From: Acidobacteriaceae bacterium
Lineage (GTDB): Bacteria; Acidobacteriota; Terriglobia; Terriglobales; Acidobacteriaceae
Assembly: GCA_027452125.1 (NCBI GenBank)
Contig: DAIDGZ010000035.1
Coordinates: 1-37,813 of the forward strand
Direction: 5' to 3'
Length of the DNA: 37,813 bases
Shown: piece by piece, positions 1 through 8,858 of the stretch
Numbering within the stretch: the first letter of the stretch is position 1
Layout of the letters: the number at the start of each line of letters is the position of its first letter
Program-made: the position numbers and the translations under genes
Notes under the pieces: generated by a model
Told to the model about the DNA's origin: nothing
The model's database searches: none
What the model saw: only the letters and a program-made list of their open reading frames with translations

Positions 1-1242
1 TGGGACTGGGAACTGGAAGTAGCGCAGCCGGCCGTACTCGGTCTGCCCAACCACGCTGTCTCTTCCGTACCCGCACAGGGACAGCTTGGCCTGGGCGCCA
101 CCTACTACGCCGCAAGCAAGAACAACACCGAGCCCGTTGCCGCCTTTTTCAAGCAGGGATTTGTACGCTATGACGGCGAGAAAGCCTCTCTCCGCCTGGG
201 CCGCTTCGAGTTCAACGATGGCCAGGAGACGCAACCGAAAAATCCCACGATCGCCGCGCTGCAGGCAAGCCGGATCGCGCAGCGTCTCATCGGCAACTTC
301 GGCTTCTCCAACGCACAGCGCAGCTTTGACGGCCTGGATGCGCACGTCACTGCCGGCAGCTATAACCTCACCGGATTTGCCGCGCGTTCGGACCAGGGCG
401 TCTTTAACATGAACGGCAATCCCGAACTCAATGTCGATCTGCAATACCTGGCGCTCACGCACGCAACCTGGAAGCAGCGCATCCTGTGGCGTGCCTTTGC
501 CATCGGCTTTCACGATGGCCGCACCGGCCTCACCAAGACCGACAACCGTGCACTTACCATCCGCGCCGCCGATCACCGGAACATCCGCATCGGCACCTAC
601 GGTGGCAACCTGCTTGCTGTAACTCCTGCCGGTCCCGGCCAGTTCGACTTCCTCTTCTGGGGAGCCGTGCAAAACGGCAGTTGGGGCCCTCAGGATCACA
701 GCGCCAATGCCGCCGCCGTCGAGGGCGGCTACCACTTCACCAAGCTGCCAACCGCTCCGTGGCTGCGGGGCGGTTGGTTCCGCTCCAGCGGCGACGACAA
801 CCCAAGCGACGGCTCGCACCACACCTTCTTTCAGGTGCTGCCGACGCCCCGCGTCTACGCCCGTATCCCCTTCTATAACCTGATGAACAACACCGACGAG
901 TTTGTACAGATCCTGGACAAGCCCGTCAAGCCCCTTGCACTCCGCGCTGATCTCCACTGGCTGCAACTTACCTCCGCACACGATCTCTGGTACCAGGGTG
1001 GCGGCGCCTTCGACAACAAGGTATTCGGTTACGTGGGCCGCCCCTCCGGCGGAGCCACATCCTTCGCATCCGTGGGTGACCTCAGCGCCGACTGGCAGGC
1101 TACCAAACAGATTGCACTCAACTTCTACTACGGCTACGCTCAGGGCAAAACCGTGGTTGCCTCCATCTACCCCACCGATCGCAACACCCAGTACGGCTAT
1201 GTGGAATTTGTCTACAACTGGACTGGAGCGCTCAGGAAATAG
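1..1242 (+). CDS. Alginate-export-family-like outer-membrane porin (5' end truncated by window edge)
   Basis: Frame 1 is open from base 1 (WDWELEVAQPAVLGLPNHAV...) and continues into ORF 409..1242; aromatic, beta-barrel-like pattern ending ...QYGYVEFVYNWTGALRK*. Confidence 0.75.
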   Translation, partial: WDWELEVAQPAVLGLPNHAVSSVPAQGQLGLGATYYAASKNNTEPVAAFFKQGFVRYDGEKASLRLGRFEFNDGQETQPKNPTIAALQASRIAQRLIGNFGFSNAQRSFDGLDAHVTAGSYNLTGFAARSDQGVFNMNGNPELNVDLQYLALTHATWKQRILWRAFAIGFHDGRTGLTKTDNRALTIRAADHRNIRIGTYGGNLLAVTPAGPGQFDFLFWGAVQNGSWGPQDHSANAAAVEGGYHFTKLPTAPWLRGGWFRSSGDDNPSDGSHHTFFQVLPTPRVYARIPFYNLMNNTDEFVQILDKPVKPLALRADLHWLQLTSAHDLWYQGGGAFDNKVFGYVGRPSGGATSFASVGDLSADWQATKQIALNFYYGYAQGKTVVASIYPTDRNTQYGYVEFVYNWTGALRK

Positions 1243-1451: not shown

Positions 1452-3071
1452 ATGGCAACTGGAAGCTTTCAAGGATTGCGTGTCCTGGCACTCGAAAGCC
1501 GCCGCGCTACCGAGATTGCCAAGCTCATCCGCACCTATGGCGGAGAGCCCTCCGTTGCCCCCGCGCTGCGCGAGCTTCCCGTCGAGTCCAATACCGAAGC
1601 ACTGGAGTTCGCCGGCCGCCTCATCGCGGGTGACTACGATCTGGTCATCTTCCTCACCGGAGTGGGTGTGCGCCGCCTGACAGACGTAGCCGCATCCCGC
1701 TACGATCGCGATGCATTCCTCAGTGCGCTGCGCCGCGTCAAGATCGCCTCACGTGGTCCCAAGGTCAGCACTGTACTGCGCGAAATGGGCCTGTCCAGCG
1801 CCGTTACCGCACCCGAGCCCTGCACCTGGCGCGAGCTGATTCGTGCTCTTGACGCCGCCTTCGGACCTTCGCTTGAAGGTCTACGCGCTGCCGTGCAGGA
1901 GTATGGCGCTCCCAATCCAGATCTGCTCGACGCTCTGACCCAGCATCATGTCGAGTGGACGCGCGTCCCCGTCTATCAGTGGGCGCTGCCTGAAGACCTC
2001 GAACCGTTGAAGAATGCGATTCGTGCCATCGTTGCCGGGCAGGTCGATGTGATCGTATTCCTCACCGGCGCACAAATCAACCATCTCTTCCAGGTGGCGG
2101 AACAGATGGGCGCCATCGATGCTCTCTGTGCCGGCATGGAACGCGCTGTGCTGCTCTCTATTGGCCCCAGCACCACGGAAGAGCTCAAGCGCCACGGCAT
2201 CCACCCCGACTTTGAGCCCTCGCATCCCAAGATGGGCTTCCTCATGAATGAAGCCTCAGCCTGCGCCGGGCAGTTGCTCGCCGCCAAGCGCAGCCGGGCC
2301 ACCGCGCTTACACCGGCTGCTCGTTCCACCACCGTCATCGAGGCACAGCAAACGCCCAACGCGCGCCAGTCCAGCGCCATTGAGCTGATGCATGTCATCA
2401 GCCGCCGCATGGCTTCGTCCGATGCGCTGCACTCCGTGCTCGGCCAGATCGTCAGCTTTATTGAAGGTCTGCTGCACTGCGACTCCTGCTTTGTCTATGT
2501 GCTCGAAGGCAATCAGCTTGTCCTCCGCGCCTCGAAGAATCCGCATCCCGAAGTCATCGATCATCTCGGAATGAAAATCGGCGAAGGCATCACGGGCTGG
2601 GTCGCTGAGCACCGCGAGCCCGTCTGCATCGACTCCGGCGCCCTGCGCGATCCGCGCTTCCAGTCCTTCAAGGATCTCCCCGAGGACTCCTTCGAAGCCT
2701 TCCTCTCCGTGCCCATCCTCGCGCGCGGCCGTCTCGTCGGCGTCATCAACGTGCAGCATCGCCAGCCTCACCACTACACGCCGTGGGAGGTGCAGACCAT
2801 CTCTACCATCGGATTCCTGGTTGGCGCAGAAATTGAGATGGCCCGTCTGGAAAGTGAGAACAATACGCTCTCCAGCCAGCTTGAAACGCGCAAGCTCGTC
2901 GAACGCGCCAAAGGCCTCCTGCAACGCGAACTCGGCATCGATGAGGAGCAAGCTTACCGCATGATGCAGAAGGAAAGCCGCCAGCGCCGCAAGAACATGC
3001 GCGAGATCTCAGAGGCGATCCTGCTCAGCGAAGAACTGCGCAAGGCCGCTGCCGCCAGAGAAAACGCCTGA
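1452..3071 (+). CDS. Uroporphyrinogen-III synthase-like (HEM4) domain fused to GAF and ANTAR domains; putative RNA-binding antiterminator
   Basis: Start ATG 1452 with upstream GGAG; N-term LRVLALESRRATEIAKLIRTYGGEP...DLVIFLTGVGVRRL (HEM4-like), then GAF (GEGITGWVAEHREPVCIDSG...FLSVPILARGRLVGVINVQHR), C-term ANTAR (ETRKLVERAKGLLQRELGIDEEQAYRMMQKESRQRRKNMREISEAIL). Confidence 0.88.
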   Translation: MATGSFQGLRVLALESRRATEIAKLIRTYGGEPSVAPALRELPVESNTEALEFAGRLIAGDYDLVIFLTGVGVRRLTDVAASRYDRDAFLSALRRVKIASRGPKVSTVLREMGLSSAVTAPEPCTWRELIRALDAAFGPSLEGLRAAVQEYGAPNPDLLDALTQHHVEWTRVPVYQWALPEDLEPLKNAIRAIVAGQVDVIVFLTGAQINHLFQVAEQMGAIDALCAGMERAVLLSIGPSTTEELKRHGIHPDFEPSHPKMGFLMNEASACAGQLLAAKRSRATALTPAARSTTVIEAQQTPNARQSSAIELMHVISRRMASSDALHSVLGQIVSFIEGLLHCDSCFVYVLEGNQLVLRASKNPHPEVIDHLGMKIGEGITGWVAEHREPVCIDSGALRDPRFQSFKDLPEDSFEAFLSVPILARGRLVGVINVQHRQPHHYTPWEVQTISTIGFLVGAEIEMARLESENNTLSSQLETRKLVERAKGLLQRELGIDEEQAYRMMQKESRQRRKNMREISEAILLSEELRKAAAARENA

Positions 3072-3083
3072 CCTCAGCGCCGC

Positions 3084-5276
3084 CTATCCGGCGCTGGTCG
3101 GCGACTTCTCCACTCGCACCGCACATTGCTTATAGTTCGGCTCTCGTGAAATGGGATCGAAGATGTCCTGCGTCACCTGGTTGATGTTCCACTCCGCAAA
3201 GTGGAAGGGCACAAACACCTGTCCCGGCGCCACAATCTCCGTCACTCGCAACTCCACTCGCCTCACCCGCCCGCGCGCTGACACCACATCTACCAGTTCA
3301 TGCGGCCGCAGCATCAGATGTTTCGCGTCCTGCGGGTTCATCTCCAACCAGGCGCGCGGCGAAATCTGCTGCAGAATCGCCACCGCACCCGTCTTCGTCC
3401 GCGTGTGCCAGTGCTCCACTGTTCGCCCCGTGTTCAGCACCAGCGGAAAATCCTTCGTCGGCTGCTCCGGAAACGGCTCCCAGTCCACGCAATGAAACTG
3501 CGCTTTGCCGTCCTCCGTCTTGAACTTGCCATCCGCATACAATCGCCGCGCCGCACCCGCAGGCTCCGCGCATCCCTCCGGATACGGCCACTGGATGCCG
3601 CCATTCTCCTCCAGCGCCGCATAAGTCATGCCGGAGTAGTCGCACAACCGTCCAGCAGACACACGCTTCCACTCCGCAAACGCATCCGCAGGCGTCTCCC
3701 ATCCTGCGAACAACTCTTCGTAACAGCCCATCTCGCGCGCCAGCCGCAGAAAAATCTCAAAGTCGCTCAGCGCCTCGCCCGGCGGCTGCACCGCTGCATT
3801 CACCTTGCTTACCCGGCGCTCGGAGTTGGTGTATGTGCCCTCTTTTTCACCCCAGATGGCCGCAGGCAGCACCAGGTGAGCCAGCTCGGTCGTCGGCGTG
3901 GGATGAAATCCATCCTGCACTACCAGAAACTCCAGTTCGCCCAGCGCCTGTTTCAGTACATCGATATTGGGAAAGGACACCAGCGGATTCGTGGCAATAA
4001 TCCACAGTGCGCGAATCTGCTTCTTCAACACCGCGCTGATGATGTCTGGATACGCCAGCCCACGCTGCGCAGGTATCCGCTCCACAGGAATATCCCACAA
4101 CCGCGCCAGAGCCGCGCGATCCTCCGCGCTCTCAAATTTGCGATATCCCGGCAAACTTGAGGAGAATCCTGCCTCGCGTGTGCCCATCGCATTGCACTGC
4201 CCGGTGATGGAGAACGGCGATCCGCCCACGCGCCCCACGTTACCCGTCAGCAGCGCCAGGTTATTGATCGCATTTACCGTCTCTGTCCCCTTGGAGCTGT
4301 GATTCACACCCATTGTCCAGCCGATGAATGCAGCCCGTGCTGTGCCGTAAAGGTGCGCCACACGCTCCAGCTTCTCCACGCTCAGGCCGGTGATTCGGCT
4401 CACGTGCACCGGCGTGTACCGTTCGAGAAACGCGCTCAGCTTCTCGAATCCTTTGGTATGCGCCTCGACATAGCTGCGATCGACCAGGCCATCGCGGATG
4501 AGAATATGCGCAATGCCATTCAACAGCGCTAGATCGGAGCGCGGCCTCACCGGCAGATACAGGTCTGCCATCATCGCTGTCTTGGTCACGCGCGGATCGG
4601 CCACAATCAGCGTCTTGCCAGGATTCACATCCAGATGCTGGCACAGGATAGGATGATTCTCCGCAATATTCGCGCCAATCAGCAGCACCACGTCCGCCGT
4701 GCGCAGATCCTCGTATGCGCCCGGCGGTCCATCACTGCCAAACGAGCGCTTGTAGCCCGCCACAGCAGTGGACATGCAAAGTGTCGTGTTGCCGTCATAG
4801 TTGGAAGTACCCAGCCCGAGTTGTACCAGCTTGCCCAACGTATAAAACTCTTCGGTCACCAGTTGTCCCGTACTAATGACGCCAACTGCCTGCGGCCCAT
4901 ACTTCCGCGCCACGCGCTGAAACTCACCGGCCATCCGGCGCAATGCCTCATCCCAGCTCACACGATGCATCCCGCCCGCCGCGCGCATCATTGGATAGTG
5001 CGCACGATGCTCCGCTTCAATCACGTGATGCTCCGCGAGTCCCTTAGGGCACAACTTGCCAAGGTTCACTGGATGCTCAGGATTCCCGCGCGCCGTGACT
5101 GCGCGCCCCTCACGGACGCCCACCAGCATCCCGCAACCCACTGAGCAGTAGCCACAGGTAGTCTTCACCCAGCGGTCAGCCACCTTGCCCGCGGAGATGT
5201 GCCCAACCATCGCGTCGCGTGCATACGCATATTTGCGCCGCGCAATATCCAGTCCCAGCCATCGCCGCAGATTCAT
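3084..5276 (-). CDS. nasA: Molybdopterin oxidoreductase, NasA/NapA-type nitrate reductase catalytic subunit
   Basis: N-terminal [4Fe-4S] motif CGYCSVGCGMLV...LCPKG; Mo-ligand region NTTLCMSTAVAGYKRSFGSDGPPGAYEDL typical of NasA/NapA; no obvious Tat signal. Confidence 0.85.
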   Translation of the reverse strand: MNLRRWLGLDIARRKYAYARDAMVGHISAGKVADRWVKTTCGYCSVGCGMLVGVREGRAVTARGNPEHPVNLGKLCPKGLAEHHVIEAEHRAHYPMMRAAGGMHRVSWDEALRRMAGEFQRVARKYGPQAVGVISTGQLVTEEFYTLGKLVQLGLGTSNYDGNTTLCMSTAVAGYKRSFGSDGPPGAYEDLRTADVVLLIGANIAENHPILCQHLDVNPGKTLIVADPRVTKTAMMADLYLPVRPRSDLALLNGIAHILIRDGLVDRSYVEAHTKGFEKLSAFLERYTPVHVSRITGLSVEKLERVAHLYGTARAAFIGWTMGVNHSSKGTETVNAINNLALLTGNVGRVGGSPFSITGQCNAMGTREAGFSSSLPGYRKFESAEDRAALARLWDIPVERIPAQRGLAYPDIISAVLKKQIRALWIIATNPLVSFPNIDVLKQALGELEFLVVQDGFHPTPTTELAHLVLPAAIWGEKEGTYTNSERRVSKVNAAVQPPGEALSDFEIFLRLAREMGCYEELFAGWETPADAFAEWKRVSAGRLCDYSGMTYAALEENGGIQWPYPEGCAEPAGAARRLYADGKFKTEDGKAQFHCVDWEPFPEQPTKDFPLVLNTGRTVEHWHTRTKTGAVAILQQISPRAWLEMNPQDAKHLMLRPHELVDVVSARGRVRRVELRVTEIVAPGQVFVPFHFAEWNINQVTQDIFDPISREPNYKQCAVRVEKSPTSAG

Positions 5277-6805
5277 GCCGCACGCTCCTGCCGCAGGTAC
5301 GGTGCTGCCATGTTTTTCGGCACTACGCTCACAAAAAACAGATAGCGTCCGAGTATCTCAGCACCTGCGGCAACTACCAGGCACACCGCCGGCGTCCACG
5401 CCGCATCGCGCGCAAAAACCAGCGCCAGCACCACTGCCAGTACGCAGCCAAGCCGCATCGCCAGCAGAGGAAACAAGGGATAAAACAACAGCTCTCCCGC
5501 GGCGCGCAGCTCGAACACCGGCGATCGCAAAAGCCACGCAACCTTACCCGCCTGCTGCGCAAGCAGCAGTACGCCTGCGCCACACGCTGCGAGCAACAGC
5601 GCCATCCGGGTTCCCCCCATGAAGCATGCAGCCAGCAGTGTGCCCGTGAATGCCGCGCTGCCAAAGAACTCAAAGAACGTGTGCGCATTGTTCCATGCCG
5701 GCCGAGCCGCAACCTTGTAGAGCCGCGCGCTGGCATACACCGCCACTGCACCAGTGAAAGCGGCAATAAGTCCGCTCGCCGCACTCCAGGTGGACCCCAG
5801 CCACAGTAGCCCGGCATAACCCGAGGCTGCTCCTGCAAACAAGGAAAAGAAGAGAACCTCGCGGCTTAACCATGAACGCCGCCACATGCTCAACGCGCGG
5901 AAGGCGTAGATCGGGCGTCCCAGATGCAGTGTGGATGCACCCAGTGCACACATCGCAATCAACACCACACCCACTGCCGGCACGCGCGCCACGCTTGTAC
6001 GCGCAATGGCCTGCGAGGCGGCCATCGAGGTAATTGCGCCGACTGCCATCTGCGTCAGCACCGTCATCCACACCAGCGGCCAGTGCGGATGCTCCAGATG
6101 CACCTGGGCCGTATCCACGCGCCCGGTATTCGCTGGTGTATCGTGCCGCAACGTCACCCGTGTTGTGGAAATGCTGTCGTCTGCCGAAGGTAGTCCCGGC
6201 GCGTTGGCCTGCTCGCCATACTCCTTGCGCCACTCTGCCACATTCACAATCTCGATGCGGATTGCTTCCTCCGGGCATGCCGCCACACACGCCGGCTCGC
6301 GGCCATCCGTCAGCCGCCCATAGCACATATCGCACTTGCCCACTACGCCGCGCTCCGGATTGTACTGCGGCACGCCATACGAGCAGTTCCACGTGCAATA
6401 CTGGCAGCCGATGCAGCGCTCGGCATTGTGCAGCACAATCCCCGTCAACGAATCCTTGGTGTACGCATTCACCGGACAGCCGCTCATGCATGTCGGCTCC
6501 ACGCAGTGATTGCAACCCATCGAAAGATACAGCCGCAGTGTATCCGGGTACGTGCCGCCTTCAACCTCACCCACCCGCCGCCACTGAATATGCTCGGGAT
6601 TGCCGTTCTGCTCATTGCATGCCACCACGCAGCATTTGCAGCCAATGCACTGGCTCATATCCAGATGAAAGCGGTATTGTTCGCCCGGCCCAGGCGTTCT
6701 GTCTGGCGTCAGAGCCGTGCGTGAGGGCGCAGCGCAGGCACTCGCCGGTGTCAGCGCAAACAACTCGCCGTGTTCAGTGGCCCGTTCAAGAAGGGGAAGT
6801 TGCAT
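5273..6805 (-). CDS. DmsB-like four-cluster ferredoxin fused to DmsC-like membrane anchor
   Basis: Start ATG 6805 (MQLPLLERATEHGEL) with GGAG upstream on minus strand; CIGCKCCVVAC, CNHCVEPTCMSGCP, CIGCQYCTWNC, CDMCYGRLTDGREPACVAACP; C-terminal multi-TM region; 4-bp overlap with nasA. Confidence 0.88.
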   Translation of the reverse strand: MQLPLLERATEHGELFALTPASACAAPSRTALTPDRTPGPGEQYRFHLDMSQCIGCKCCVVACNEQNGNPEHIQWRRVGEVEGGTYPDTLRLYLSMGCNHCVEPTCMSGCPVNAYTKDSLTGIVLHNAERCIGCQYCTWNCSYGVPQYNPERGVVGKCDMCYGRLTDGREPACVAACPEEAIRIEIVNVAEWRKEYGEQANAPGLPSADDSISTTRVTLRHDTPANTGRVDTAQVHLEHPHWPLVWMTVLTQMAVGAITSMAASQAIARTSVARVPAVGVVLIAMCALGASTLHLGRPIYAFRALSMWRRSWLSREVLFFSLFAGAASGYAGLLWLGSTWSAASGLIAAFTGAVAVYASARLYKVAARPAWNNAHTFFEFFGSAAFTGTLLAACFMGGTRMALLLAACGAGVLLLAQQAGKVAWLLRSPVFELRAAGELLFYPLFPLLAMRLGCVLAVVLALVFARDAAWTPAVCLVVAAGAEILGRYLFFVSVVPKNMAAPYLRQERAA

Positions 6806-6836
6806 AGTCTCTCCACGAAAACATGCAGCACGCGCC

Positions 6837-6948
6837 CGCGCACCTTGTTGCGCGTGTGCGGCAAATGAATTAGCCGTCTCCGGAAAGTCCATGCTTCCGG
6901 GTTCAAGGCTCGTCGTGGAGAAATTGCGATCGGCACAGGCGGGGTGCC
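6837..6948 (-). promoter_or_regulatory. Structured leader of dmsBC-nasA: three consecutive hairpins
   Basis: GGCAC/GTGCC (6932-6948), CCGGAA/TTCCGG (6880-6900), CGCGCA[ACAAGG]TGCGCG (6837-6854), all upstream of ATG 6805. Confidence 0.4.
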
Positions 6949-7053: not shown

Positions 7054-7344
7054 TTCCCGCTTGAACCTTATGCAGGACCACGTTAGACTGCGTCTGTAGC
7101 TTCCCTGTTGGCTGGCGCCTCGAAGCGCCGCTCGCCGCACCAATCTGGTTCGCGGCCCGCAAGCATCCATACAACTCCGCGCCCTGACCGCGCGGCCGCA
7201 GCGTCTCATCTGGTCTTCGCACCCGGTGGGCTCTTCGTGCGTTCCGCTTCTCTTCTCGGCGCCTCTCGTCCTCTCTTGCGCCGCACAGGCAGCGTGTACG
7301 CGCGGCCCCATGCACGCTTCAACCCAATGGAGAAGAGAAAAGCT

Positions 7345-8652
7345 ATGGCTACGCACAAGGTGGAACAGCTCATCATCGCAACCGTGGGCTTCTTCTGGTG
7401 TTTCCTCATGTGGTTTTCTACCGCCGCCTTCAGCCCCAGTATCGCGGCCCACTACCATCTCGGCATCAAGGCTCTGGGGCTGCTCGCCAGCTCCGCCATC
7501 TGGATGGCGCCAATTGGCCGCATCCTTGCCGGCTGGGCCGCGGACCGCTTCGGCGCTCCTCGTACCTTTGCCTGCATCCTGGCCGGCTGCGGTCTGATGT
7601 CCATCGCCTCGGCCTTTACCACTGACTACAATCTGCTCTTTGCCGAGCGCGTGCTGGTTGCGGTTGCCGGCGTCTCCTTCGTCGTGGGCATCCAGCATGT
7701 AGCGCAATGGTTTGACGCCTTCGAAATCGGCACCGCCGAGGGCCTCTATGCTGGCACAGGCAACGCCGGCGCGGGCGTCGGCGCGCTGCTGCTGCCGCGC
7801 CTCTTCGCCACCGACTACCACACGGCATTCCTCTGGCTCGGCGTTGTGGCTCTGGTCATCGCCGCCTGGTATCTGCTGCGCGGTCGCGCTGCTCAGTCTG
7901 AAGGTCAGCGCGTACTCGTGCGCCGCCAGGCGAACCTGCGCACCACGCTTTTCGTCTGGAGCCGCTATATCGCCATTGCCCTCATGCTCGCCTACGCCAT
8001 GTCCTTCGGCCTGGAAATTGCGCTCAATGCATGGCTGCCCGGCTACTTCACGCGTGGCTTCCACGAGGCGATTCTCGCTCTCGGCTTCCACGGCGTCGCC
8101 GGTCTGCAGATCGCCGCGGGCACCTTCGCTGCTGTCTGTTCCTTTAACGCCTCGCTCTTCCGGCCCTTCTCCGGATTCATGTCCGACCTCTTCCAGCGCA
8201 ATAACTGGACTCCGCTGCCCTTCATCGCGCGCCGCCTGCCCTATGCACCGCGTCTCCACTGGCTCGGCCTCTCGCTCATGCTCATCGTCCTTGCCATGGG
8301 CGGGCTCACTGTCGCCGGACTCGCTGGCTCGCTCAGCCTCTCTGTTACCGCGCTGATGGGCCTGGGGATCTTCGTCTCCTTCGGCACCGGCGGCACCTTC
8401 GCGCTGGTCCCATTGCTCTTCCCTGACCGTCCCGGCACCGCCGCCGGCTTCATTGGGGGCGTCTCCACCATCGGCGGCATCATCTATCCACTCATCTTCG
8501 CGGGCGGAGCAGACATCCACACCGGCTATGCTCGCGTTGCACTCTTCATGTTCCTGCCCTTCGTTGCCTTCTACTTCTGGGCTGCACGCTACGAGCGCGC
8601 GCCGGAAGAGCATGGCTTTGCCGCAGCCGTCTTCGCCGCAGAAGAAGCCTGA
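7345..8652 (+). CDS. narK: NarK-like MFS nitrate/nitrite transporter
   Basis: MATHKVEQLIIATVGFFWCFLMWFSTAAFSPSIAAHY...; about 12 hydrophobic segments; adjacent to nitrate reductase genes. Start 7327 also possible. Confidence 0.8.
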   Translation: MATHKVEQLIIATVGFFWCFLMWFSTAAFSPSIAAHYHLGIKALGLLASSAIWMAPIGRILAGWAADRFGAPRTFACILAGCGLMSIASAFTTDYNLLFAERVLVAVAGVSFVVGIQHVAQWFDAFEIGTAEGLYAGTGNAGAGVGALLLPRLFATDYHTAFLWLGVVALVIAAWYLLRGRAAQSEGQRVLVRRQANLRTTLFVWSRYIAIALMLAYAMSFGLEIALNAWLPGYFTRGFHEAILALGFHGVAGLQIAAGTFAAVCSFNASLFRPFSGFMSDLFQRNNWTPLPFIARRLPYAPRLHWLGLSLMLIVLAMGGLTVAGLAGSLSLSVTALMGLGIFVSFGTGGTFALVPLLFPDRPGTAAGFIGGVSTIGGIIYPLIFAGGADIHTGYARVALFMFLPFVAFYFWAARYERAPEEHGFAAAVFAAEEA

Positions 8653-8699: not shown

Positions 8700-8858
8700 A
8701 TGCACACAGCATCATCCGTGGAACAGACTGCTCCGCAGCCCTGGTACAAATACGGTGTCGGATTTCTCATTCTCGAGATGGCTGCTGCCATCACCGTCAG
8801 CATCTACTCGCTCTACATGACGTTTCATGGCATCGGCGGATTTCCCGGCAAGCACTAG
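8700..8858 (+). CDS. 52-aa single-TM small protein
   Basis: Strong SD AGGAGG 7 nt before ATG 8700; MHTASSVEQTAPQPWYKYGVGFLILEMAAAITVSIYSLYMTFHGIGGFPGKH*; below the ORF-track length cutoff. Confidence 0.7.
   Translation: MHTASSVEQTAPQPWYKYGVGFLILEMAAAITVSIYSLYMTFHGIGGFPGKH

Follow-up and report, generated by a model that had tools for sequence, protein, structure and literature searches.

The DNA analysed here (the window), a stretch of 37,813 nt from the genome of a soil bacterium of the Acidobacteriaceae, encodes a protein in which a uroporphyrinogen-III synthase-like (HEM4) domain, a GAF domain and an ANTAR domain are joined, and we consider it likely that this fusion is a one-component RNA-binding ANTAR activator of nitrate and nitrite assimilation that acts through leader hairpins with C at loop position 1 and G at loop position 4 (C1/G4). 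Matching paired hairpins stand in the leaders of nitrate genes, so that control at the RNA level probably turns nitrate use on. Actinobacterial nitrate regulators of the HEM4 type are known as DNA-binding proteins, and no signal has been assigned to their HEM4 domain. Here a related HEM4 domain appears to be wired to an RNA output, with candidate target RNAs identified, and the fusion offers a compact, testable system for the signal sensed by a spare HemD domain. Among the papers searched, none names both ANTAR and HemD.

A HEM4-GAF-ANTAR regulator conserved in the Acidobacteriaceae

The fusion is a single open reading frame with GGAG 5′ of its ATG start (Table 1). The three domains that the earlier note had read in this one frame are borne out by a Pfam search, each far over its cut-off: HEM4 at residues 21–262 (118.8 bits against 27.5), GAF at residues 326–461 (66.1 bits) and ANTAR (PF03861) at residues 473–524 (61.6 bits against 27.3). 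Pfam and NCBIfam scans found no NIT domain in the fusion. Among 297 Acidobacteriota genomes, full-length fusions occur in the window's family only, in the window's own genome (G000) and in 16 others, two of which carry two copies each. Because the full-length architecture is conserved across relatives, at 48–85% identity in these 16 Acidobacteriaceae genomes and in six named Acidobacteriaceae records, the fusion is neither a product of chance nor an assembly chimera. The domains themselves are conserved and the HEM4-GAF linker is variable. An AlphaFold model of the fusion (seven sequences) was poor, with a mean pLDDT of 47.9 and a pTM of 0.28.

Aligned to EutV (6wsh) and across the fusion family, the ANTAR domain keeps the residues that match EutV Arg142, Lys143, Lys149, Glu160, Tyr164 and Arg175. 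In EutV, Arg142, Lys149, Glu160 and Tyr164 contact the flipped loop base G4 (PMC8934654). The positions equivalent to EutV Arg168, Met172, Asn173 and Arg177 are substituted in the fusion family. Stand-alone GAF-ANTAR proteins that match the C-terminal half of the fusion at about 47–61% identity are encoded at other loci (L058–L063, L077), away from nitrate genes and, for example, adjoining a glycine cleavage P-protein gene.

Table 1. Features of the window discussed in the text, in order of position.
Feature	Position	Strand	Basis or detail
Outer-membrane porin (Alginate_exp), FNT-porin-regulator group, upstream gene	1..1242	+	Pfam; 5′ end on contig C88
HEM4-GAF-ANTAR regulator gene	1452..3071	+	539 aa
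HEM4 (uroporphyrinogen-III synthase-like) domain, putative sensor	1512..2237	+	Pfam PF02602, 118.8 bits; NnaR-like tree branch
GAF domain, putative second sensor or transmission domain	2427..2834	+	Pfam PF01590, 66.1 bits
ANTAR RNA-binding domain	2868..3023	+	Pfam; EutV-matching residues kept
NasC-type assimilatory nitrate reductase catalytic subunit	3084..5276	-	Pfam Molybdopterin/Molydop_binding/Fe4S4
Fused Fe-S (DmsB-like) and DmsC-like membrane protein, first gene of nasC operon	5273..6806	-	
Shine-Dalgarno region UCGUGGAGAGA, Fe-S/nasC operon	6809..6819	-	11-nt complement of SL2 strand
Third leader hairpin (SL3), nasC operon	6880..6900	-	CCGGAAG[CATGGAC]TTTCCGG; no clear U-tract in window
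nasC operon leader hairpin SL2	6909..6920	-	CTC[CACGAC]GAG; C1/G4 hexaloop, 3-bp stem
Anti-Shine-Dalgarno strand UUUCUCCACGA, overlapping SL2	6913..6923	-	
nasC operon leader hairpin SL1	6932..6948	-	GGCAC[CCCGCCT]GTGCC
narK leader hairpin 1	7113..7130	+	TGGCGC[CTCGAA]GCGCCG; weak model match, 13.3 bits, E = 1
narK leader hairpin 2	7177..7195	+	CCGCGC[CCTGACC]GCGCGG
NarK-type nitrate/nitrite transporter	7345..8652	+	TIGR00886, 141.9 bits, under its cut-off

An extra HEM4 copy related to NnaR

Does the HEM4 domain still act as an enzyme? A still active uroporphyrinogen-III synthase could supply siroheme for NirA, with the GAF-ANTAR part only tuning the operon, a reading that we judge improbable. 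Three points would suit an active synthase: NirA is a member of a siroheme enzyme family, the HEM4 domain has an intact fold akin to that of the solved Thermus enzyme, and another Acidobacteriota family has, among its clustered heme genes, a sister HEM4 domain fused to uroporphyrinogen decarboxylase (UROD). However, every fusion genome has a canonical HemD of its own. The earlier note had allowed that the fusion might be the only hemD of its genome; a count of copies disposes of this, with a separate canonical HemD (207 bits) on contig C28 in the window's genome and one per genome besides the fusion in 16/16 of the other fusion genomes. The fusion itself falls under the cut-offs of both the NCBIfam HemD equivalog (best 138.5 bits, cut-off 233) and the NnaR-type model PRK07239 (125.4 bits, cut-off 273).

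In a tree built from 72 HEM4 domains, all fusions fall into one clade (100/98) that is split from canonical HemD with support of 100/100. Its neighbours are stand-alone Acidobacteriota HEM4 proteins, the HEM4-UROD fusion, a Deinococcus HEM4 protein whose gene lies 3′ of nirBD, and NnaR-like proteins, among them a Tsukamurella HEM4-winged-helix protein of the PRK07239 type that is encoded beside narK, a sirohydrochlorin chelatase gene and nirBD. The HEM4 domain of the fusion is a non-housekeeping paralogue of this NnaR-like branch, distinct from canonical HemD, and the kinship to HemD-winged-helix nitrate regulators that the earlier note had raised holds. Its place in the branch argues further against an active synthase, since Streptomyces NnaR is reported to lack HemD activity; in mycobacteria, NnaR is required for the use of nitrate and nitrite (PMC6277429). 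The sister HEM4-UROD fusions (L072, L075, L076; gene L076:9060-11087) come from one other Acidobacteriota family; the gene clusters with ferrochelatase and an amine-oxidase-type flavoprotein, and the genome also holds a canonical HemD.

Linkage to nitrate assimilation genes

The N-terminus of the porin is encoded at the end of contig C88, from the same genome, where the contig overlaps the start of the window; the gene order can therefore be joined across the two. The flavoprotein gene and nirA lie on one strand and the FNT transporter, porin and regulator genes on the other, followed by nasC and the Fe-S/DmsC gene, which are opposed to the regulator, and by narK as the last gene. Likewise, in relatives nirA, a CysJ-like flavoprotein gene, the Fe-S/DmsC gene, nasC and narK are clustered adjoining the fusion, and nasC is at most 20 kb from it in most loci. 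Of the 17 fusion genomes, 15 hold a close nasC (identity of 64% or more), the exceptions being G061 and G130; among the 14 genomes of the family without the fusion, none does. A tie of the fusion to nitrate assimilation, which had been proposed from its neighbourhood, is supported by this adjacency and co-occurrence. Five fusion loci (L035, L040, L043, L048, L049) have no nearby nasC and no leader motif. The fusion copies at L040, L043 and L048 adjoin cell-envelope genes and a conserved protein of about 500 residues; the latter has no significant Pfam match, and no regulon-type hexaloop motif was observed at these loci.

The NasC-type protein matches both the NasC and the NasA models of NCBIfam, each under its cut-off. 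The first gene of its operon encodes one protein with both an Fe-S part like DmsB and a membrane anchor like DmsC, which is unusual for a partner of an assimilatory nitrate reductase. A small membrane-like protein of 52 residues, matched at about 64% in two relatives, is encoded 3′ of narK (8700–8858).

Paired hairpins in the leaders of nitrate genes

Which RNAs might the ANTAR domain recognize? Four kinds of leader, those of nirA, Fe-S/nasC, narK and the FNT-porin-regulator operon, carry hairpins with a CNNGNN hexaloop closed by a C:G pair, usually two together. The window's own genome has the motif in all four, which are not orthologous to one another. In nirA leaders the first hairpin (SL1) reads GGCAC[CNNGNN]GTGYC and the second (SL2) GCTC[CNNGNN]GAGC, while one genus group has the SL1 stem GGCCC/GCGYC instead. 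SL1 loops of at least seven bases occur in some leaders, mostly in the window's lineage, the SL2 loop of the FNT leader begins with T, and the narK pair, detected by pattern, has a weak model score. In 43 upstream regions of the regulon there are 37 C1/G4 hairpins, and in 96 further regions from these loci there are 4; the Fisher value of 5e-14 overstates the certainty of this difference because the regions of related genomes are not independent. C:G-closed A1/G4 hexaloops show no enrichment (5 in 43 against 8 in 96). Canonical A1/G4 hexaloops in the nirA leaders were set aside as candidates, being scattered and unenriched.

A covariance model built from ten leaders, none of them from the window's genome, has its best site in that genome at the nasC leader of the window (E about 0.005) and its second at the leader of nirA on C88 (E about 0.07). 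All matches with E < 0.01 in the 33 genomes searched belong to fusion genomes and fall at their nitrate loci. Similarly, an exact double-hairpin pattern matches 6 of 297 genomes, five of them fusion genomes with the match at nitrate leaders, and its reversed control gave 0 matches. The sixth, G097, is a non-fusion genome whose match was taken as chance after a brief look at the surroundings. Weak motif matches at L134, L135, L137, L138 and L140, which fall within open frames or show a degenerate SL2, were also taken as chance, and the match at L136 was rejected as it lacks SL2 pairing. Covariation support for the stems is minimal because they hardly vary; they are nearly invariant, with one compensatory pair.

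ANTAR proteins are known to bind hexaloops that come in pairs, with A1, G4 and a closing C:G pair (PMC3369931, PMC7496416, PMC8164766). Judged by sequence, the leader RNA is a variant of this target class, with C in place of A at position 1 and with G4, the closing C:G pair and the pairing of hairpins present, while the ANTAR membership of the protein rests on its domain. The SL1-SL2 linkers reach 45 nt, against 2–25 nt in known targets (PMC8164766). C at loop position 1 is plausible because G4 alone is read base-specifically in the EutV-RNA structure (PMC8934654); the finding that an A1 mutation weakened the binding of EutV to RNA (PMC3369931) counts against C1 loops. The leaders would widen the target rule from A1/G4 to C1/G4, and searches limited to A1/G4 would therefore miss such regulons.

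It is very unlikely, in our view, that some other RNA-binding protein reads the hairpins or that these structures have nothing to do with the fusion. The departure of the loop from canonical A1/G4 and the absence of the hairpins at some fusion loci would fit such a reading. However, the loops share G4 and the closing C:G pair with ANTAR targets, the strong motif matches are confined to fusion genomes, and no ANTAR protein other than the fusion was found in most of these genomes, namely in 11 of the others and in G000, where this is not conclusive because the assembly is 67% complete. We propose that the fusion is the protein that recognizes these hairpins.

A possible route from hairpin binding to translation

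The anti-Shine-Dalgarno strand UUUCUCCACGA is complementary over 11 nt to UCGUGGAGAGA, which lies directly 5′ of the Fe-S/nasC start codon. In a relative (L036) the pair is altered in step, to CTCCATG/CATGGAG, and the nirA leader of the window's own genome holds a CTCCAGG/CCTGGAG pair. With start codons assigned by eye, own pairs of SL2 and Shine-Dalgarno region outdo swapped pairs (p about 0.0007 for run length and 0.00002 for energy), an effect that stems from the window's lineage and L056/L057 and is absent in most other genera. In the window's lineage, the folding of SL2 would compete with the Shine-Dalgarno pairing, and the complementarity suggests that ANTAR binding frees the ribosome site. 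In the narK leader (7241–7262 / 7325–7340), a pyrimidine run, TTCTCTTCTC, could pair with the Shine-Dalgarno region GAGAAGAGAA, which may be chance.

Classical antitermination in all leaders, with ANTAR bound to SL1-SL2 preventing an SL3 terminator and the Shine-Dalgarno complementarity incidental, is a real possibility, though not the reading that we favour. Antitermination is the known mode of ANTAR proteins (PMC3369931, PMC8934654), and some leaders have a stable hairpin 3′ of SL2 followed by a modest T-rich stretch. Yet U-tracts are poor or absent, and the window shows none 3′ of SL3; nor is there a clear overlap between SL2 and the SL3 stem, and SL2-Shine-Dalgarno pairing is better in own than in swapped combinations. 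No convincing intrinsic terminator was found after SL2 in the leaders, where SL3 folds modestly better than shuffles. We favour release of the ribosome site in the window's lineage; in other genera, the third hairpin may be a transcription terminator.

We propose the following route, in which we infer RNA binding by the fusion, the direction of control, the output step and the ligand. First, the HEM4 domain would have been recruited from the NnaR-like branch of the uroporphyrinogen-III synthase family. Second, HEM4 and GAF would sense a nitrogen-oxide or tetrapyrrole-related signal and control the C-terminal ANTAR domain; tetrapyrrole sensing is a plausible guess. Third, the active ANTAR domain would bind the C:G-closed CNNGNN hexaloops of the four kinds of leader. 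In the window's lineage, SL2 held folded would be withdrawn from the Shine-Dalgarno region and the ribosome site freed, whereas in other genera the hairpin 3′ of SL2 might serve as a terminator instead. A more far-reaching version, speculative and on balance unlikely, is a natural ANTAR-controlled anti-Shine-Dalgarno switch that answers a tetrapyrrole-linked or nitrogen-oxide signal and couples cofactor supply to reductase translation. If true, the switch would fold a C1/G4 hairpin whose strand otherwise masks the ribosome sites of nitrate and nitrite reductase.

Comparison with known systems

One close counterpart is NasR of Klebsiella oxytoca (NIT-ANTAR, nasF leader), which is likewise a one-component ANTAR protein of nitrate assimilation with paired hexaloops in a nas leader. 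In NasR, however, the sensor is NIT rather than HEM4-GAF, loop position 1 is A rather than C, and antitermination is proven, whereas release of the ribosome site is the likely step in the window's lineage. NnaR (HEM4 plus winged helix; MSMEG_0432 type, PRK07239) shares the use of a HEM4 paralogue as a nitrate/nitrite regulator, with the Tsukamurella example encoded beside narK and nirBD; its output is a DNA-binding winged helix, whereas that of the fusion would be an RNA-binding ANTAR domain, with a GAF domain added. The related HEM4 protein of the Deinococcus nirBD cluster is encoded directly 3′ of nirD, stands alone and has no output domain. EutV of Enterococcus faecalis resembles the fusion in the ANTAR residues that contact loop base G4 and in a dual hexaloop target, but it is a two-component response regulator with a receiver domain, and its canonical A1/G4 loops overlap terminators. 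Finally, in the NmPAL riboptoregulator (PMC11381354), a cis-repressing RNA masks the Shine-Dalgarno sequence until the PAL receptor, activated by light, binds a hairpin and unmasks that sequence. That working circuit is engineered and has a light sensor, whereas the arrangement described here would be natural.
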